From positions 1 to 41,349 of the forward strand of contig JAHQWH010000064.1 in NCBI GenBank assembly GCA_029856105.1: DNA of 41,349 bases. The letters run 5' to 3'. Position numbers and translations under genes: made by a program. The notes below the pieces were generated by a model that ran no database searches, had not been told where the DNA came from, and was given only the letters and a program-made list of their open reading frames with translations. The stretch is from Promethearchaeia archaeon. Its GTDB lineage: Archaea; Asgardarchaeota; Lokiarchaeia; Sigyniarchaeales; SOKP01. Of the stretch, positions 13,183 to 27,715 are shown piece after piece; positions within the stretch are counted from its first letter, which is position 1, and each line of letters opens with the position of its first letter.

Positions 13183-13725
13183 TCACGAAAACCTTTGTTT
13201 ATCTCGATATTCTTTAACGGAAACTTCTCGCACCTCTAACCTACTATTTTCTATTAAAGTTTCTTCGATAGCTTTAATTTCATCTCTAGTTTTAATATCG
13301 CTTTTTTTAAGTTTCTCAAGAATTTCTTTTTCTCCTAATCCCTTAGTATAATACTCCCTAAATTTTTCAACAGTCTCCTCGTTGTAAAAAATATAGTGTC
13401 TATTCGTAAAAATAATCAACCAATTCTTCTTGTTTTGCTTTTTCGATAAATGGTGCATCTTTTCTTGGATTTGGGGTAAGGGACGTTTAAGCTTTCTAGC
13501 AACCATTTTATCTTCGATTGAGCTACAATCCGATAAAAATTTTTTAAGTTTTTTATTAAAAAATAGAGTTGGAATGTAAGAAAGGGCAAATAGTACTATA
13601 GTAATAACAGTCATTATTATCGCTGCTAGTGGATAAAATATAAAAACGATAAGAATTGCAATAACAAGAAATATAAACCATTTTCTTCCAATTGTCTTTA
13701 GTGTTTTTACGAATTTGCTAGGCAT
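13183..13725 (-). CDS. Small membrane protein of unknown function
   Basis: 180 residues from the ATG at 13725; a TTG four codons upstream is possible. Two closely spaced hydrophobic segments (WFIFLVIAILIVFIFYPL and AAIIMTVITIVLFALSYI) form a likely membrane hairpin. About 130 charged residues follow, rich in Lys and Glu, probably helical and cytoplasmic, with NWLIIFTNRHYIFYN and then EKFREYYTKGLGEKEILEKL. I do not recognise the family. The stop lies 38 bp from the convergent PAS gene. The permuted 5S rRNA gene is immediately upstream on the same strand but has its own promoter and T tract. Confidence 0.6.
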   Translation of the reverse strand: MPSKFVKTLKTIGRKWFIFLVIAILIVFIFYPLAAIIMTVITIVLFALSYIPTLFFNKKLKKFLSDCSSIEDKMVARKLKRPLPQIQEKMHHLSKKQNKKNWLIIFTNRHYIFYNEETVEKFREYYTKGLGEKEILEKLKKSDIKTRDEIKAIEETLIENSRLEVREVSVKEYRDKQRFS

Positions 13726-13776
13726 ACAAATCTTCAAATTATGGTTAATTTGTTCTAATTTTATAATTTATGGGTT

Positions 13777-13782
13777 AAAAAA
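13777..13782 (-). terminator. T6 tract ending the permuted 5S transcript
   Basis: Six T residues on the minus strand lie 8-13 nt past the 3' arm of the inverted repeat that encloses the permuted 5S rRNA. Archaeal RNA polymerase terminates at such tracts, so the primary transcript would be about 220 nt. Confidence 0.5.
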
Positions 13783-13802
13783 TCGGTATAACCATATAAA
13801 TT

Positions 13803-13845
13803 ACCGCATTCTGGGTTCCCGAACCATCTGTTCGGCAGATTGTTT
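13803..13845 (-). other. Structured 3' extension of the permuted 5S transcript
   Basis: 43 nt lie between loop C and the closing inverted repeat. Two abutting hairpins form: ATCTG-CCGAA-CAGAT (13840-13826) and GGTT-CGGG-AACC (13825-13814). The following GGGAACCCAGAAT resembles the 3' side of a canonical loop C/helix III (GAACCCGGAAGU). Its CCAG (13814-13811) could pair perfectly with CTGG at 13860-13857, competing with the CCTGG at 13966-13962. The segment may therefore be an insertion in loop C that stays in the mature RNA. Confidence 0.5.
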
Positions 13846-13966
13846 TTCGGATGTGACCAGGTTTTATCCTGTAATACCATGACCGTAGCCGAAGCTACAG
13901 TTTGCAAGTTCCCATAGACTTTCAACTACAGTACTATTTGCAACGCAAAACAGTTTAACTTCCAGG
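13846..13966 (-). rRNA. rrf: Circularly permuted 5S ribosomal RNA
   Basis: Read 13966 to 13846, the order is 3' half then 5' half of a 5S rRNA. The 3' half has CCTGGAAGTTAAAC (loop C/helix III/loop B), CTGTTTTGC (helix II, 13953-13945), TTGCAA (helix V, 13943-13938), AGTACTGTAG, GAAA, CTATGGGAAC (loop E and helix IV), TTGCAA (helix V, 13907-13902) and ACTGTAGC (helix I, 13901-13894). A TTCG tetraloop (13893-13890) then joins the normal ends. The 5' half follows with GCTACGGT (helix I, 13889-13882), CATG, GTATTACAG (helix II, 13877-13869), CCTGG (helix III, 13861-13857) and TCACATCCGAA (loop C). Helices I, II, IV and V all form, helix II with two U-U pairs. The unit is 121 nt, normal 5S length. 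The break lies in loop C. The segment is visibly richer in G and C than its surroundings. Confidence 0.88.
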
Positions 13967-14022
13967 CGAAAAATTTTTTTTTTAAAAAATTTATATGGTT
14001 TATTTTTTTTTCAACAACCATC

Positions 14023-14029
14023 TTATAAA
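14023..14029 (-). promoter_or_regulatory. TATA box for the permuted 5S rRNA gene
   Basis: TTTATAA (14029-14023), preceded by CGAA as a BRE-like element. Archaeal transcription starts about 25 nt downstream of the box, i.e. near 14001, which is where the enclosing inverted repeat begins (14000). The agreement supports an independent RNA gene. Confidence 0.6.
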
Positions 14030-14157
14030 TTCGGCTATATTATTGTAAAATGCTTTCTTTATATGGTTGCAAGTATATAGAGTAGTAAAGACTAGTAATT
14101 AAACTTTTTCATAATGAATCGTTAAATTTAAAAGGAATAGCACATGACGCTTTAATT

Positions 14158-16305
14158 TCATTCCAATTTTCTACGGTCGTTTTTGTACCTTCTAATTCCA
14201 ACTATTATAATTGTTGACGATATTCCTGCCAAACCTACAATCATAATTGACGCAATAACTAGAACGAAGTCCGTAAATGGTTTAGGTATTGTAAAACTGA
14301 AATTATGCTCGTAATGAACGGTAGTATTATTTGTAAAGTCTCTCGCAATTACGAGGTATGAATATTCTCCAGGCTCCATTTTGTTTAAGGTAATGTTAAA
14401 CTCCCCTTTATTTTCATTGAAATGGTTAGATAATCTATGAGTCGAAAAGTCCGTGAAATTATTCTTTGATATTAGTAAAAATACGCTTTCGATTCCAGAA
14501 TGATTATCACTAGCGTTAATAGAAAACCGAAGATTATCAGATACTGTGGGGTTTATTGGTGCATAACTTACATTAGATACCATGGGATTGTCTGTATCTT
14601 TAAGCGTAGTAAAGTTATGATAGGAAGGAATTATATTATGACCCGTAATAATTGTACTATAATTCTCGTTTGCTCCAATTGGTAATCTAAAATCTACAAA
14701 CCCATTTTTATCAGCATAAACAGTTCGATATTTCCCATCTGTAGTTCTTAAGTTAATTCTTGCTCTCGGAACAATATTACCAAGATTATCTCTAACATGT
14801 AATGAAACGAGCTGACCTTCGTAAAAATTTTCGGTAAATTGATTTGGAACGCTTCTATATATGTCTGTGTATATATCCAGTTCGGGGTCGCCTAGTAAAT
14901 TGTATGTTAGAATATTTTTACGTTGCCACTCTTGCACCATTGAAGCGTCACCTCTTTTGAAGTAATCGCTATTCATATAGGTAACCTTAGAATCGTATAA
15001 CGCCCTTCCTTGTTGGAACTTTTTTTCATCGAAAAACTCTTTCCAAAACAATTTAGCGTTGCCACGATTTAGTTTTTCAAGATTTTCATCAAATTCATAA
15101 TACCAACTTACTCTTATAGCTCCTATGTAGCCCACTGCTCCCGCTAAAGGTCGTTTTATTAAACGCTCTCCTATGCTATAATCGCCTTGATCGTAAGAAG
15201 AAGTTGTACACACATCGGCGTAGAACAACGAAGGCATGTTTATATTGCTGCTTGATAAAGCATTTCCATTATCATAATATATTGTAGGGCTATCATCAGT
15301 AATCTTAGTTGGATCCCCATGACCAGCAATTATCACTGTAGAATAACCTAAATTAAACTCGTCAATAAAACTTGTAGCATTAAGAGGACTAAGCATATTT
15401 GGGCGTTCTGGATCGCTTGGCGTAAAATTGGAAGTAGTTTTTGTTAAATGCGTAAAATTCATTTCTGATACGACATAGTTCTGCCAAATATATTCTGTTA
15501 AGCGAGCCTCGTCTTCAGGTGGCACATATGAAGAAACGCCCCCTGCTAATAGCATTTTATTCATCCAATCTCCCATAAAAGGATCTGTTTCATATTTTAA
15601 AGTTTTGTTGATCATATCAGAGAGCTCTACAATATTATTAGCTGGTAGACGACCAACATAGATTTCTGGTATCCACGATACTTCATCAATATTTCCCGTG
15701 TATTCCGAAGATTCGCCCCATATACTATTGTTATTATCGTCCCACGATCCTGTTAAATCAGCGTAATAAAAATCAGTTGGTTTATAATAATCGTCCCAAT
15801 TCAAATATTCAGATTCACCACCTATTAGCGTTACATCTGGGTTATATACATATCTTATAGGAATTAAATTATCTTCAGCATCGCCGGCGAGAAGAACCCA
15901 TTGAATGTTTTCCTTTTCGTAATACTCTTTTATCATATTTCGAATTTGCTCTGCTTTATCCCTACCTTCATAATCCGAATAGTTGGATAAAACGATGGTT
16001 TTAACCCCTTTCTCGTTTTTCCATTCCATTAAGGGGGTAACAGCATCCAAAAAACTCGTGTCATTTATAATTATAAGCATCTCTATCTTTTGATCGTACC
16101 AAGTGGCGTTTAATGTTTCATAGTCAATTTCTGGCAATTGAGACAAATCAATTTCGGGGACGTTATTGGCTGTTTTCAATTTGTTTAATAGATTCTTATC
16201 ATTTGTAATTGGACTGCTAAATTCTATCATAAGGCTTACAACTGGAATAAGAACCAATATAATTAGTGAAAAAATTGCAAGTTTCTTAAAACCTGTTTTA
16301 GTCAT
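14158..16305 (-). CDS. Membrane-anchored gingipain-like (C25 family) cysteine protease
   Basis: 715 residues with an N-terminal signal/anchor (about 7-27) and a C-terminal membrane segment (about 680-703) followed by a basic tail, so the bulk is extracellular. The middle is a peptidase C25 domain: WVLLAGDAEDNLIPIRY and PEIYVGRLPANN are family hallmarks. His329 in VIIAGHGDPT and Cys366 in FYADVCTTSSYD form the likely catalytic dyad. An Ig-like region follows (about 500-670), with REGULAR-type strands such as GQLVSLHVRDNLGNIV. Many N-glycosylation sequons (NFT, NNT, NYS) fit a surface protein. Gingipain-like proteases are widespread in Asgard archaea and suit peptide-degrading lifestyles. Confidence 0.88.
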   Translation of the reverse strand: MTKTGFKKLAIFSLIILVLIPVVSLMIEFSSPITNDKNLLNKLKTANNVPEIDLSQLPEIDYETLNATWYDQKIEMLIIINDTSFLDAVTPLMEWKNEKGVKTIVLSNYSDYEGRDKAEQIRNMIKEYYEKENIQWVLLAGDAEDNLIPIRYVYNPDVTLIGGESEYLNWDDYYKPTDFYYADLTGSWDDNNNSIWGESSEYTGNIDEVSWIPEIYVGRLPANNIVELSDMINKTLKYETDPFMGDWMNKMLLAGGVSSYVPPEDEARLTEYIWQNYVVSEMNFTHLTKTTSNFTPSDPERPNMLSPLNATSFIDEFNLGYSTVIIAGHGDPTKITDDSPTIYYDNGNALSSSNINMPSLFYADVCTTSSYDQGDYSIGERLIKRPLAGAVGYIGAIRVSWYYEFDENLEKLNRGNAKLFWKEFFDEKKFQQGRALYDSKVTYMNSDYFKRGDASMVQEWQRKNILTYNLLGDPELDIYTDIYRSVPNQFTENFYEGQLVSLHVRDNLGNIVPRARINLRTTDGKYRTVYADKNGFVDFRLPIGANENYSTIITGHNIIPSYHNFTTLKDTDNPMVSNVSYAPINPTVSDNLRFSINASDNHSGIESVFLLISKNNFTDFSTHRLSNHFNENKGEFNITLNKMEPGEYSYLVIARDFTNNTTVHYEHNFSFTIPKPFTDFVLVIASIMIVGLAGISSTIIIVGIRRYKNDRRKLE

Positions 16306-16795: not shown

Positions 16796-18367
16796 ATGAC
16801 TAACGATTTAGAAGAGGTTTCAGGAATAGGAAAAGCAACAGCAGACAGGTTGAGAGCGTCTGGCATTGATACAGTTGAAAAATTAGCTTCAACGACTCCA
16901 GAAGAATTAACTAAGTTAAAAATCAAGGGAGTAGGTGAATCTACAGCTTTAAAGTATATTAAGAACGCTCAGAAATTAATTAAAGAAAAACCAAGTGATA
17001 CTAAACCTAAATTAAAGAAAGAAGAAGCTCCACCCAAGCCAGAAAAACATCAAAAACATGAACCAACTAAAAAACAAAAGCCAGTAAAAGGGAGTAATCT
17101 TAAAGAATTAATAAAAAAACAAGCAGAATGTAATATTGGATTAGTGGGTCATGTAGACCACGGTAAGACCACGCTAGTTAAGACCTTAACGGGCGATTGG
17201 ACGGATAGACATTCTGAGGAAATAGAGAGAGGGATTTCGATAAAACTAGGATATTCAAATGCGACTATTCTATACTGCCCTGAATGCGATGAATATCTTA
17301 CATATCATATGGCAGAATCTGCTAGAAAAAAAGGTCAACCAAGATTTGTTTGCCCCAACTGTAAAAAAAATTTAGAGTTTAGAAGAAATATTTCCTTCGT
17401 CGATGCTCCTGGCCACGAAATCTTAATGGCTACTATGTTAAGTGGAGCTTTTTTAATGAATGGCGCGTGTTTACTAATTGCCGCTGACGACGTTTGTCCC
17501 CAGCCACAAACGAGAGAACATTTAGCCGCATTGAATATTGCGGGAATCGAGAATATTATTATCATCCAAAATAAAATTGATGCTGTGTCAAAAGAGCAAG
17601 CGTACGAAAATTATAAGCAAATAAAAGCGTTTGTAAAAAATTCAATTGCTGAAAACGCTCCAATTATACCTATTTCCGCCGTTTTTGGCGTTAATATCGG
17701 TCTGATAGTTCGAGCGTTCGAAGAAATAATACCTTCTCCTAAAATTCGTGAAGATGAAGAATTTCAATTCTTAATTGCTAGATCTTTCGACATAAATCGC
17801 CCAGGCACAGAAATCAGTAAACTACGTGGCGGAGTTATAGGGGGTTCCGTATTAAAAGGTAAAATTAAGGTTGGTGAAGAAATCGAAATTAGACCGGGAC
17901 TTCGAGTTAAGAACGATTTTATACCAATTAAAACTGAAATAGTAAGTATTAGCCAAGGGAATAATCTTTTAGAAGAAGCTAATCTCGGAGGTCTAATTGG
18001 ATTAGGGACTAAATTAGATCCCGCCTTGACAAAGGGAGACTCTCTGATAGGGCATTTGGTTGGCAAAACTAACACATTACCCGAAATTGTTTCTCAAGTA
18101 GAGTTAAAAGTCAACCTTTTAGAAAGAGTAATTGGTTCTGAAATGCAAATAAGGGTTCAACAACTTAAACATAACGAAAAGCTCTTGTTAGTTGTTGGTA
18201 CTGAAAAAACAGCAGGAATTGTTACAAAAATTTTAAAAAATTCATATATTCTAAATTTAAGTCCACCTATTTGCCCTCTTGAGAATTCTATATTTGCGAT
18301 TTCTAGAATTATTAATAGACGTTATCGATTAATAGGATATGGTAAACTTTTTAATCAAAATCAGTGA
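16796..18367 (+). CDS. eif2g: Translation initiation factor aIF2 gamma with N-terminal helix-hairpin-helix extension
   Basis: 523 residues; usual aIF2-gamma is about 410. Residues 112-523 are a complete aIF2-gamma: GHVDHGKT at 118-125, a zinc knuckle C161/C164 and C186/C189 (with a longer loop than usual), DAPGHE at 203-208, NKID, then domain II (FDINRPGTEISKLRGGVIGG) and domain III (LLERVIGSE to RYRLIGYG). It carries Met-tRNAi to the small subunit. Residues 1-62 are an added helix-hairpin-helix domain (LEEVSGIGKATADRLRASG and IKGVGESTALKYI) very like the N-terminal domain of RadA/Rad51. A Lys/Pro-rich linker (63-103) joins the two. The ATG is in frame with no closer alternative, and coding character is continuous, so the fusion looks real. 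Confidence 0.93.
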   Translation: MTNDLEEVSGIGKATADRLRASGIDTVEKLASTTPEELTKLKIKGVGESTALKYIKNAQKLIKEKPSDTKPKLKKEEAPPKPEKHQKHEPTKKQKPVKGSNLKELIKKQAECNIGLVGHVDHGKTTLVKTLTGDWTDRHSEEIERGISIKLGYSNATILYCPECDEYLTYHMAESARKKGQPRFVCPNCKKNLEFRRNISFVDAPGHEILMATMLSGAFLMNGACLLIAADDVCPQPQTREHLAALNIAGIENIIIIQNKIDAVSKEQAYENYKQIKAFVKNSIAENAPIIPISAVFGVNIGLIVRAFEEIIPSPKIREDEEFQFLIARSFDINRPGTEISKLRGGVIGGSVLKGKIKVGEEIEIRPGLRVKNDFIPIKTEIVSISQGNNLLEEANLGGLIGLGTKLDPALTKGDSLIGHLVGKTNTLPEIVSQVELKVNLLERVIGSEMQIRVQQLKHNEKLLLVVGTEKTAGIVTKILKNSYILNLSPPICPLENSIFAISRIINRRYRLIGYGKLFNQNQ

Positions 18368-24305: not shown

Positions 24306-25583
24306 TTGGTAGATTATGTAGATTTAAGTTATGAACCGAACGAAAATGATCTTGTTGTCATGTATTTCGTTGAAAAAGCGGTTGATTGTGAAAGTCTGGA
24401 AAAAGCGTGCGAGGAAATCGCTAAAGAAAGTTCAATAGGTACATGGACAGATATTTTGACGATGTCTGCAGATATTGCTGAACGCCTCGAACCATCTGCT
24501 TTTTATATAGATCCACAAAATCAAATTATAAAAATTGCTTATTCTGAAGAATTATTTGAAGCCGATAACATGTCTCAAATTCTTAGCGCTATTGCCGGTA
24601 ATATTTTTGGTATGAAGGTGATTAATAATTTAAGGCTTTTAGATATTACATTTCCTAAATATATAGTCAGCAAATATAAAGGACCTAAGTTTGGTATCAA
24701 TGGTATCAGAAAATTAACTAAAGTAGAAAAGAGACCCTTATTAGGAACAATAGTAAAACCTAAAGTAGGATTAAATGAGATCGAACATGCTAAAGTGTGT
24801 GAAGACGCGTGGATGGGAGGTTTAGACATAGTAAAGGACGATGAGAATTTAACCAGTATGGTCTTTAATAAATTCAATAAAAGAGTTGAAGAAACTTTAA
24901 AAGCCCGAAATAGAGCTGAGATTGAAACTGGTGAAAAGAAAATATATATGCCCAATATTACAGCTAAATTAAGCATTATGAAAGAAAGAGCAAATACAGT
25001 AATAGATAACGGCGGAGAATATATAATGGTTGATATTTTTACAGTAGGAATCTCCGCTTTACAAGACCTTCGAGATTATCTAGAAGATAAAAATGTCGTT
25101 ATTCACGCCCATAGAGCTATGCACGCAGCCTTTACGCGTAACAAAAAACATGGAATAACAATGTTAGCTTTAGCCAAAATAATGCGATTAATAGGAATGG
25201 ATCAATTGCACACGGGTACTATCGTTGGAAAAATGGAGGGTGATAAACATGAAGTTTTAGAGACAAATCAAGTAATAACAGAGTCAAAAATTAAAGGGAA
25301 TCATATAACCATGCTGGACCAAGAATGGGGTAATATTAAATCTACATTACCAGTTGCTTCAGGAGGTTTAAGCCCATTACACATTCCTGATTTAATAAAA
25401 TATTTAGGTAGTGACATGGTGTATCAGTTCGGTGGAGGCTGCCATGGTCATCCTAACGGTACAGAAACAGGGGCAAAAGCGATAAGACAGGCGATAGATG
25501 CTGTATTAGAAGGTTCTTCATTAGAAGAAAAAGCTAAGACCTCACCAGAGTTGAAGGATGCAATTAAAAAATGGAGGAAATAA
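24306..25583 (+). CDS. rbcL: Ribulose-1,5-bisphosphate carboxylase, archaeal form III
   Basis: 425 residues. All catalytic positions can be matched: Glu41 and Thr46 (ESSIGTWT), Asn99 (AGNIFG), Lys151/Lys153 (GTIVKPKVGL), the carbamylation site Lys177 with Asp179/Glu180 (GGLDIVKDDE), His269-Arg270 (HAHRAMHA), His302 (LHTGT), Lys309 (GKMEG), Ser352 (ASGGLSP) and the GGG loop at 375-377. It should therefore be a true carboxylase, not a RuBisCO-like protein. In archaea form III enzymes consume ribulose-1,5-bisphosphate made from AMP-derived ribose-1,5-bisphosphate, giving two 3-phosphoglycerate. The isomerase for the preceding step is at 26780-27715. AMP phosphorylase is not in this window. Confidence 0.95.
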   Translation: MVDYVDLSYEPNENDLVVMYFVEKAVDCESLEKACEEIAKESSIGTWTDILTMSADIAERLEPSAFYIDPQNQIIKIAYSEELFEADNMSQILSAIAGNIFGMKVINNLRLLDITFPKYIVSKYKGPKFGINGIRKLTKVEKRPLLGTIVKPKVGLNEIEHAKVCEDAWMGGLDIVKDDENLTSMVFNKFNKRVEETLKARNRAEIETGEKKIYMPNITAKLSIMKERANTVIDNGGEYIMVDIFTVGISALQDLRDYLEDKNVVIHAHRAMHAAFTRNKKHGITMLALAKIMRLIGMDQLHTGTIVGKMEGDKHEVLETNQVITESKIKGNHITMLDQEWGNIKSTLPVASGGLSPLHIPDLIKYLGSDMVYQFGGGCHGHPNGTETGAKAIRQAIDAVLEGSSLEEKAKTSPELKDAIKKWRK

Positions 25584-26779: not shown

Positions 26780-27715
26780 TTATAGCATATCAGGATATAA
26801 TTTTGCAAAGTAATTATGGACGTGAGAACTTGCGAAGATCCCTGCTTCAGTTATAAGTCCATCTATGTATCTTCTACTTACGGTCTCAAAAGCAGGATTT
26901 AGGATAGTTAAACCCTCTGGAGCGTCCTCCCATACTTCTTTCGGGTCTCTCATTTCAATTTTTTCCAAAATACCAAAGGAAGTTTGAGGATTATATTTTA
27001 AAAGAGGGGATGCAACATAGAAGGGTACGTGTTCTTCGTGTGCCACTAATGCCAACAGTCGAGAACCAATTTTGTTAATAATCGTGCCCTCTGAAGTAAT
27101 AGAATCTGCTCCAATAATTATTAAATCTACTTCGTAATGATTAACAACCCAACGCATAGCACTATCAATTACGTGAATAACTTCAATTCCAGCATCAAGT
27201 AATTTTCTGACGGTTTTTTTTCCTTGTAATCTAGGTTGAGTTTCTGTTGCTACGACTTTAAAATGGTCTTTCCCCTGTCTTTTTGCCTCTAATAGGATAG
27301 CATTTACGATGCTTGAATGGCAATGAGTCATTATAATGAAGTTATCGTCCGTACTTACATCAGGAATTCTCCTTGCGCCTATTTCAGCTATTTTCTTTTT
27401 TGAATTTTGCATCAATAATTTATATTCATCCTTACAACTGGCAATTAATTCCAAAATTTCTTTTATTGATAATGAATCTATTTTTTTTTTTAATCGATTT
27501 GTAATATAATTAAGTCCATTTCTCAAGGCAGGCTCAGTCGCCCTCGTCTGGAATAAAATGGTATTAGCTTCTACTAATTTATTAAATAAATCTTCTGATG
27601 TAATGGTTTCACCAATTCTTTGCGCGTAATCGCTTAAGAATTGTATTGCACTAATTGCTACATTTGAAGCTCCCTGAATTTCTAAGGATTTAATCTTTTC
27701 AGCGTCCTTTAACAA
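26780..27715 (-). CDS. e2b2: Ribose-1,5-bisphosphate isomerase (eIF2B-related)
   Basis: 311 residues of the eIF2B alpha/beta/delta - methylthioribose-phosphate isomerase superfamily. The R15P isomerase signature is present: TRATEPALRNGLNYI, IMTHCHSSIV with catalytic Cys132, TETQPRLQGKKTVRKL, and IIIGADSITSEG with Asp204. It converts ribose-1,5-bisphosphate to ribulose-1,5-bisphosphate, the substrate of the RuBisCO at 24306-25583, in the archaeal AMP pathway. Start is uncertain: TTG at 27715 gives MLKDAEK, while a GGTGA box further upstream would place an ATA codon (MQQLLKDAEK) at normal spacing. Confidence 0.9.
   Translation of the reverse strand: MLKDAEKIKSLEIQGASNVAISAIQFLSDYAQRIGETITSEDLFNKLVEANTILFQTRATEPALRNGLNYITNRLKKKIDSLSIKEILELIASCKDEYKLLMQNSKKKIAEIGARRIPDVSTDDNFIIMTHCHSSIVNAILLEAKRQGKDHFKVVATETQPRLQGKKTVRKLLDAGIEVIHVIDSAMRWVVNHYEVDLIIIGADSITSEGTIINKIGSRLLALVAHEEHVPFYVASPLLKYNPQTSFGILEKIEMRDPKEVWEDAPEGLTILNPAFETVSRRYIDGLITEAGIFASSHVHNYFAKLYPDML

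Follow-up and report, generated by a model that had tools for sequence, protein, structure and literature searches.

A circularly permuted 5S rRNA gene widespread in Asgard archaea, with a flanking splice-like stem and a predicted circular product

Permuted and circular RNAs have been described from archaea, organelles and engineered bacteria. The SRP RNA of Thermoproteus tenax is encoded by a permuted gene and is circularised at a tRNA-splicing endonuclease site (PMC4731332). Archaeal 16S and 23S rRNA genes have the normal order, and their transcripts are processed at bulge-helix-bulge (BHB) motifs by EndA and RtcB to give circular rRNA (PMC12918454, PMC7714728); circular 23S is reported inside archaeal ribosomes (PMC12918454). 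Permuted tRNA genes also have exchanged halves and a circular precursor, and exchanged 5S halves are known from permuted mitochondrial 5S (Valach et al. 2014; both cited in PMC10085705). The 5S circRNAs of Halobacterium, detected and checked by RT-PCR and including one that spans the whole 5S, and some in Sulfolobus come from ordinary linear genes and have variable ends; they are discussed as possible degradation products, and no permuted gene is involved (PMC12558985). In addition, E. coli cells are viable when their 23S incorporates a circularly permuted 5S, showing that a permuted 5S can work in a ribosome, although this hybrid is artificial, joined to 23S and burdened with assembly defects, unlike the Asgard gene (PMC7283268).

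Here we describe a 5S rRNA gene with exchanged halves on the minus strand, positions 13959–13809, of the window (the whole stretch of 41,349 nt that was analysed, from a Lokiarchaeia genome), identified by sequence reading and covariance models. As in Thermoproteus tenax, an essential non-coding RNA gene of an archaeon is permuted, with its termini near a functional loop and the canonical gene "missing" from the genome, and circularisation at an endonuclease site is predicted; the permuted order, the fused ends and the genes for endonuclease and ligase are all found. Unlike that case, the RNA is an rRNA, the permuted order extends over most of a phylum, and the circle, established there by RNA-seq, is here predicted (PMC4731332). 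A first-pass annotation of the window had known of no permuted 5S in a cellular archaeal genome, and we likewise found no permuted 5S gene outside organelles in the openly licensed literature, which excludes bioRxiv and holds few subscription papers; the phrases "permuted 5S" and "circular 5S rRNA" returned no paper there.

Along the minus strand, the 5S landmarks run GAAGTTAAACTG, AGTACTG and TGGGAAC, then the fused natural ends, then TCATGG, ACAGG, AACCTGG and ACATCCGAA. The swapped landmarks and the TTCG that joins the natural 3′ and 5′ ends (ACTGTAGC-TTCG-GCTACGGT, 13901–13882) lie where the first-pass annotation had placed them. Its unit of 121 nt at 13966–13846 is replaced by a predicted unit of 151 nt at 13959–13809. 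The predicted 3′ boundary moves from 13846 to 13809, since the supposed trailer contains CCAG (13814–13811), which is the 3′ strand of helix III, and since loop C holds a hairpin of about 30 nt; the 5′ boundary is put at 13959, the upstream CCTGG being part of a splice stem and not of helix III. The features are as follows (covariance models R1 and R2 are defined below).

14021..14030, minus strand: TATA-like element ATTTATAAGA upstream of the gene, a putative promoter (from the letters)
13988..14000, minus strand: 5′ arm of the 13-bp outer helix, AACCATATAAATT, a perfect complement of 13802–13790, in the precursor MFE fold
13966..13969, minus strand: 5′ strand UCGC of outer helix H of the splice stem, pairing with 13807–13804 (three Watson-Crick pairs and one G-U), in MFE folds
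13962..13965, minus strand: 5′ strand CUGG of central helix h of the splice stem, in the leader, with four of four pairs to 13814–13811
13959..13961, minus strand: bulge 1, AA^G, 3′ of the 5′ strand of h, with a cut predicted at 13960/13959 from BHB rules
13809..13959, minus strand: permuted 5S rRNA unit, a predicted circle of 151 nt (R1 50.1 bits, R2 38.6 bits; circular MFE fold is the 5S three-way fold)
13882..13901, minus strand: helix I hairpin, natural 3′ and 5′ ends fused by UUCG (from the letters; helix I aligned to R1)
13857..13861, minus strand: 5′ strand CCUGG of helix III, pairing with CCAG at 13814–13811 in the predicted circle
13817..13851, minus strand: loop C hairpin extension (UCCGAA...UUCGGGA with AUCUG/CAGAU) in the circular fold, the insertion being also in G160, G054, G174 and G176
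13811..13814, minus strand: CCAG, 3′ strand of central helix h and of helix III, partner of the leader CUGG in the precursor and of 13860–13857 in the predicted circle
13808..13810, minus strand: bulge 2, AA^U, 3 nt in the stem search and precursor fold, with a cut predicted at 13809/13808
13804..13807, minus strand: 3′ strand GCGG of outer helix H of the splice stem (stem search and precursor fold)
13790..13802, minus strand: 3′ arm of the 13-bp outer helix, AATTTATATGGTT (from the letters and the precursor fold)
13777..13782, minus strand: T6 tract, a probable termination signal (from the letters)

Four genomes of the same genus (G160, G054, G174 and G176) carry a CTTAT(A/G)AGA-like stretch at the position of the TATA-like element; the T6 stretch is kept in three of them and interrupted in G054. 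Because all four also carry the loop C hairpin, this hairpin is not decay, and we rejected the idea that the window copy is a decayed one. The 13-bp inverted repeat, read at first pass as one mark of an independent gene, does exist, and its role is reassigned to the outer arm of the splice stem. Among neighbouring genes in the window, the 5S gene adjoins a gene for a 715-aa protein with a Peptidase_C25 domain (14158–16305, minus strand). A GTPase gene at 16796–18367 (plus strand) combines EF-Tu GTP-binding and eIF2-gamma C-terminal domains with an N-terminal helix-hairpin-helix. A RuBisCO large-chain gene (24306–25583, plus strand) lies near an IF-2B-family gene (26780–27715, minus strand); in archaea, genes of these two kinds usually go together in the AMP/ribose bisphosphate pathway.

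Models of linear 5S do not recognise this locus, as the first-pass annotation foresaw. Rfam at gathering thresholds gave no match in the window, and RF00001 or any other 5S family gave none at E ≤ 10 in region 13700–14100 searched with 4227 families. The same search gave no match to permuted mitochondrial 5S (Rfam mtPerm-5S), a family presumably among the 4227. R1 is a covariance model from 18 aligned permuted genes, none of them from the window's family, f1. It matches 13959–13826 with 50.1 bits (E = 1.7e-9), aligned over model positions 1–123, with helix III aligned only in part owing to the loop C insert, and nothing else in the 3.66 Mb genome matches it at E ≤ 10. The 5S helices emerge from an RNAalifold analysis of the 18 genes, and 29 of the 36 predicted pairs have changed on both sides, the covariation in relatives that the permuted reading had called for.

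A second comparison used 12 of 15 canonical Asgard 5S sequences (families f2, f7, f12, f14 and f18; L011, L014 and L030 left out), rotated in silico at the predicted junction (R2) or left unrotated (R3). R2 matches the window over its full length with 38.6 bits, whereas R3 gives 18.9 bits for positions 49–105 and 10.7 bits for a second piece, in agreement with a circularly permuted 5S and with the expected two weak halves. All 33 further permuted loci have full-length R2 matches (30.1–95.7 bits) and reach at most 44.9 bits with R3; three canonical loci show the reverse behaviour, and all three are in the training set, so they are no independent controls.

The permuted order is not confined to this genome. 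A permuted model and a search of other Asgard genomes had been proposed at first pass, and among 195 genomes of the phylum we find the permuted form in 115, canonical order only in 57 and neither in 23; it is thus the commoner state in the sampled phylum and no single-genome oddity. RF00001 exceeds its cut-off in only 61 of the 195, while many genomes have two weak RF00001 matches adjacent on one strand, which is the mark of a permuted 5S; loci with such paired matches were fetched, and permuted genes were recognised by eye in many families. R1 at E ≤ 5e-6 (at least 42.5 bits) identifies 108 of the 195 genomes, its best half-match to a canonical gene being 41.6 bits (G095). Seven more (G116, G134, G165, G193, G080, G001 and G092) are permuted by sequence, with scores of 38.7–50.4 bits in the fetched loci. 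The permuted count includes ten genomes whose loci were not fetched (G066, G076, G091, G097, G100, G124, G133, G136, G186 and G188), and the canonical class rests on inspected letters for 16 of 30 loci (L001–L030) and on the RF00001 score alone for the remaining genomes.

By family label, the permuted order occurs in 20 (f1, f4–f6, f8–f11, f16, f17 and f19–f28) and the canonical order in five (f2, f7, f12, f14 and f18), with f3, f13 and f15 assigned to neither. Family f2 belongs to the same order as f1 and is canonical, whereas the permuted families f4–f6 share only its class. The fused ends were also turned into an exact pattern which, run over 84,980 species genomes, found 34 stretches: 31 in Lokiarchaeota/Lokiarchaeia, one in Odinarchaeia and two in bacteria; the pattern is limited to hairpins that have UUCG and four variable pairs (27 of 161 loci), and by a rough estimate one or two chance matches are expected. 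Several of the Lokiarchaeia permuted genes (L054, L106–L113 and L117) are about 30 nt longer; by sequence, L054 has the extra part near helix IV, whereas L106, L108 and L117 have it in loop C.

Chance similarity, or an assembly artefact, has a negligible probability. Wrong cutting of a tandem array or of a circle can give a permuted order, and we found no support for this here. Both ideas are refuted by the spread of one order over 115 genomes and 20 family labels, with gene-specific flanks where fetched, and by the E-value of R1, which excludes chance similarity because this independent model was trained without the window's family.

Copy number and arrangement vary among the genomes. G050 (3,326,783 bases, one contig) has two permuted copies, and G192 has two different permuted copies in tandem, starting 157 bases apart (L146). 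Family f26 (G073 and G121; L199–L203, L141) shows several near-identical permuted copies, most at contig ends, and seems to have dispersed multicopy permuted 5S genes. Three tandem canonical 5S genes about 375 bases apart are found in G095, a single-contig genome of f2 and hence of the same order as the window's family (L115/L026). A tandem array such as that in G192 might allow a gene to pass from one order to the other. On family labels alone, we put forward as tentative, and rather doubtful, the wider view that most lineages of Asgard archaea, the phylum closest to eukaryotes, use a covalently closed circular 5S made by tRNA-splicing enzymes, that this state is ancestral, and that f2, f7, f12, f14 and f18 regained the canonical order, for instance via tandem duplication.

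Within its own genome, the locus is the only detectable 5S rRNA gene. When a conventional 5S was sought elsewhere, as the first-pass annotation had advised, RF00001 matched nowhere in the 3.66 Mb at E ≤ 10, whereas the same model matches in 12 of 14 control genomes; the genome is a draft, 92% complete, which leaves a small chance that a linear 5S was missed. A complete 23S gene lies at G000:C34 (a full 23S match was obtained in three of six genomes examined), and its fetched flanks hold neither a canonical nor a permuted 5S. The genome also encodes the enzymes of tRNA splicing: two genes with the endonuclease domain PF01974, on C107 and C12 (98.5 and 72.3 bits), and one with the RtcB domain PF01139, on C191 (558.8 bits). 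The two PF01974 genes would correspond to the heterodimeric endonuclease type, which accepts BHBs with various bulge lengths (PMC7714728).

The incompleteness of the draft bears on the idea that the locus is a non-functional relic and that a normal 5S was missed, and metagenome-assembled genomes (MAGs) often lose rRNA genes. We consider this explanation highly improbable. The window form is retained in the four genomes of the same genus, and seven single-contig genomes, 70–98% complete (G003, G050, G150, G165, G168, G170 and G177), are permuted and have no RF00001 match above the cut-off. Such matches occur in four of the 115 permuted genomes. The one in G073 was rejected as a canonical 5S, since it covers one half of a permuted gene close to the end of a contig, and those in G089 and G128 (f1) and G167 (f25) were rejected because their letters look like those of bacterial contaminants. 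Bacterial-looking 5S genes in Asgard MAGs (L003/L070 in G089, L069 in G128, L005 in G167) could pass as a "5S present" quality mark. The permuted order would explain missing 5S genes in some Asgard archaea: 5S genes were reportedly not predictable in the genomes of one study (PMC8813620). On the other hand, a 5S gene is listed for two Asgard MAGs in PMC9723677.

The leader and trailer form a bulge-helix-bulge-like splice stem, which is absent from the first-pass annotation. In the window, it consists of the 13 bp (14000–13988/13802–13790), an asymmetric loop, UCGC/GCGG, the bulge AAU, CUGG/CCAG and the leader AAG; only three Watson-Crick pairs and one G-U make up H, a short helix that the asymmetric loop interrupts. 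The stem is found in the unconstrained precursor fold (z −3.1; 2 of 200 shuffles fold as well) and in a further MFE fold. G003 (single contig, 1,418,269 bases) has a stronger stem, GGTAGTATCG-CGTG-AAA / CACG-GAA-CGATACTACC, and outer helices reach 14 to 16 bp in f9 and f17.

As a control, leaders and trailers were compared within loci and swapped between families, with equal freedom of cut site. An outer helix of at least 4 bp is found in 72 of 87 distinct loci (from 19 families, related to one another and not independent) and in 1004 of 6100 swapped pairs. For at least 6 bp the counts are 55/87 and 144/6100, for at least 8 bp 37/87 and 30/6100, and for at least 10 bp 33/87 and 6/6100. The stem search took 111 entries, namely 108 permuted copies in 105 genomes and three canonical G095 copies, and was restricted by position, since an unrestricted search took unrelated helices in many f1 loci; G023 and G156 have no position-restricted stem because their contigs end there. 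The outer-helix control used 93 of 109 rows (87 distinct), leaving out 12 of f22, three of G095 and G130 (contig end), and it retained the loci that are cut on the opposite side, a choice that works against the stem reading.

All four pairs of h form in 60 of 74 distinct loci and in 1186 of 4584 swapped pairs, in a control that favoured real pairs, as cut sites had been chosen on them. The sequences of h include CGTG/CACG, CCGG/CCGG, CTGG/CCAG, CCGA/TCGG, CCAG/CTGG, CGGG/CCCG, CAAG/CTTG and CGAG/CTCG. Helix h is so conserved that swapped pairs also form it, so h alone says little and the outer helix is the better evidence.

A complete BHB has a 4-bp helix flanked by two 3-nt bulges (PMC7714728). 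Measured against a BHB closed by helices on both sides, the window has the outer side (UCGC/GCGG, AAU, CUGG/CCAG), whereas the inner side has fewer than three pairs in 72 of 84 copies. Only 12 of 84 copies have an inner helix of at least three pairs right behind a 3-nt bulge 1, a share no higher than among swapped pairs (792/5788); the window has none there, although GUU/AAC could pair behind a 2-nt bulge AA. The stem is thus not a textbook BHB, its inner helix being weak or absent. No good stem was found at the expected place in f4, f24 and some f20 loci. In f22, the best stem places cut 1 about 32 nt further upstream (L126, L128, L133, L137, L139, L140, L159 and L160), and ligation there would put an extra hairpin at the conserved helix III bulge, a known site of 5S expansion segments.

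Joining the ends at the predicted cuts restores the canonical 5S junction at the level of sequence. With a matrix from 15 distinct canonical Asgard segments (24 loci), the ligated junction outscores both unligated flanks in 78 of 84 copies and is not best in the other six; the test covered 84 of 109 rows, leaving out 12 of f22, 12 listed exclusions and G130. Mean scores are 20.5 bits for ligated junctions, 4.8 for leaders and −1.4 for trailers, compared with 25.1 for canonical sequences. In the window, the junction GAACCCAGAA^GTTAAACT scores 23.0 bits, the leader 5.5 and the trailer −7.6.

The position of the stem is not the same in all relatives. In five f1 genomes (G098, G116, G134, G165 and G193) it lies on the 5′ side of loop C, as CTGG-AAC with CCGG-TCA and an outer helix of 3 or 4 bp, and their ligation product ATACCCGGTC^CCATCCGAACCCGGAAGTTAAACTT has the same 35 letters as that of G064, G168, G181 and G187, where the stem is on the 3′ side; a third arrangement is found in G131. 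This comparison applied the same stem rule at the other side with no base gained or lost at the joint, and it retained only candidate sites whose product matched the loop C pattern. Both arrangements complete one continuous loop C, which would be hard to explain unless the ends are joined.

Folded without constraints, the 151-nt circle of the window gives the 5S three-way junction with helix III across the joint and loop C drawn into a hairpin. Among 19 circles, one per family, helix III crosses the joint in eight (f16 in part). In f9, f17, f19, f21 and f23 the helix III part folds otherwise, and f4, f5, f6, f20, f24 and f27 give no clean 5S fold (the f6 example comes from a doubtful cut). In bacterial 5S, loop C positions and the helix III bulge are the least obstructed insertion sites (PMC7812874). 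The predicted joints appear to fall in the corresponding parts.

Taken together, we think it likely that this sole detectable 5S gene, with its halves exchanged, gives a transcript that is cut at the BHB-like stem by the tRNA-splicing endonuclease and probably ligated by RtcB into a closed circular 5S. The TATA-like and T-tract signals suggest independent transcription. The leader would then pair with the trailer (13-bp outer helix, UCGC/GCGG, AAU bulge, CUGG/CCAG), a pairing that both the letters and the unconstrained fold display and that most families share with different bases. The endonuclease would cut after AA on both sides and RtcB would join ...CCCAGAA to GUUAAAC..., both kinds of gene being present. 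The joint is predicted to restore helix III (CUGG/CCAG), the conserved AA bulge and a continuous loop C, giving a circle with the normal 5S fold and a closed helix I. Since no other 5S is detected, the circle would serve as the 5S rRNA of the large subunit. The mature RNA probably lacks the loop C termini that the first-pass annotation had expected: both the splice-like stem around the gene and the return of a canonical junction argue for ligation into a circle.

The same cuts are compatible with a permuted 5S that stays linear, its ends meeting in helix III and loop C, as assumed for mitochondrial permuted 5S. That RNA is organellar, and to our knowledge neither a BHB nor circularisation is associated with it. 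Cleavage alone would yield the right pieces, the stem is without a textbook BHB inner helix, and permuted organellar 5S has been described (Valach 2014, cited in PMC10085705). For pure cultures of other archaea, it is reported that 5S, unlike 16S and 23S, is not excised and circularised (PMC12918454), which counts against a circle. Nevertheless, cutting by archaeal EndA at 16S and 23S BHBs is followed by RtcB ligation (PMC12918454), RtcB is present here, and cuts on either side of loop C lead to a joint with canonical letters. We therefore regard a linear product as unlikely.

Alternatively, the circle could be an intermediate, with a later cut in the helix I loop producing a 5S with ordinary ends. 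Permuted tRNA precursors mature in this way, their circles being recut to the standard form (PMC10085705), and Pyrococcus 23S is circularised and then re-linearised (PMC12918454). In the permuted 5S, no intervening segment separates the natural ends, which are fused by a closed UUCG tetraloop in the window, while the 18 aligned copies have short loops at this place, and reopening is accordingly quite improbable. A circle that stays closed remains the reading we prefer.

Few genes are as conserved as that for 5S rRNA, and in cellular genomes its order had been taken as fixed. The permuted Asgard genes offer a testable case of an RNA permutation arising, moving (two loop C sites within Lokiarchaeia) and apparently reverting or recurring (canonical f2 beside f1). 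In practice, an Asgard MAG can fail a 5S-based completeness check for a technical reason. Should the mature form be the circle, these ribosomes would contain a 5S rRNA without ends, and the tRNA-splicing system would gain an essential task in large-subunit assembly.
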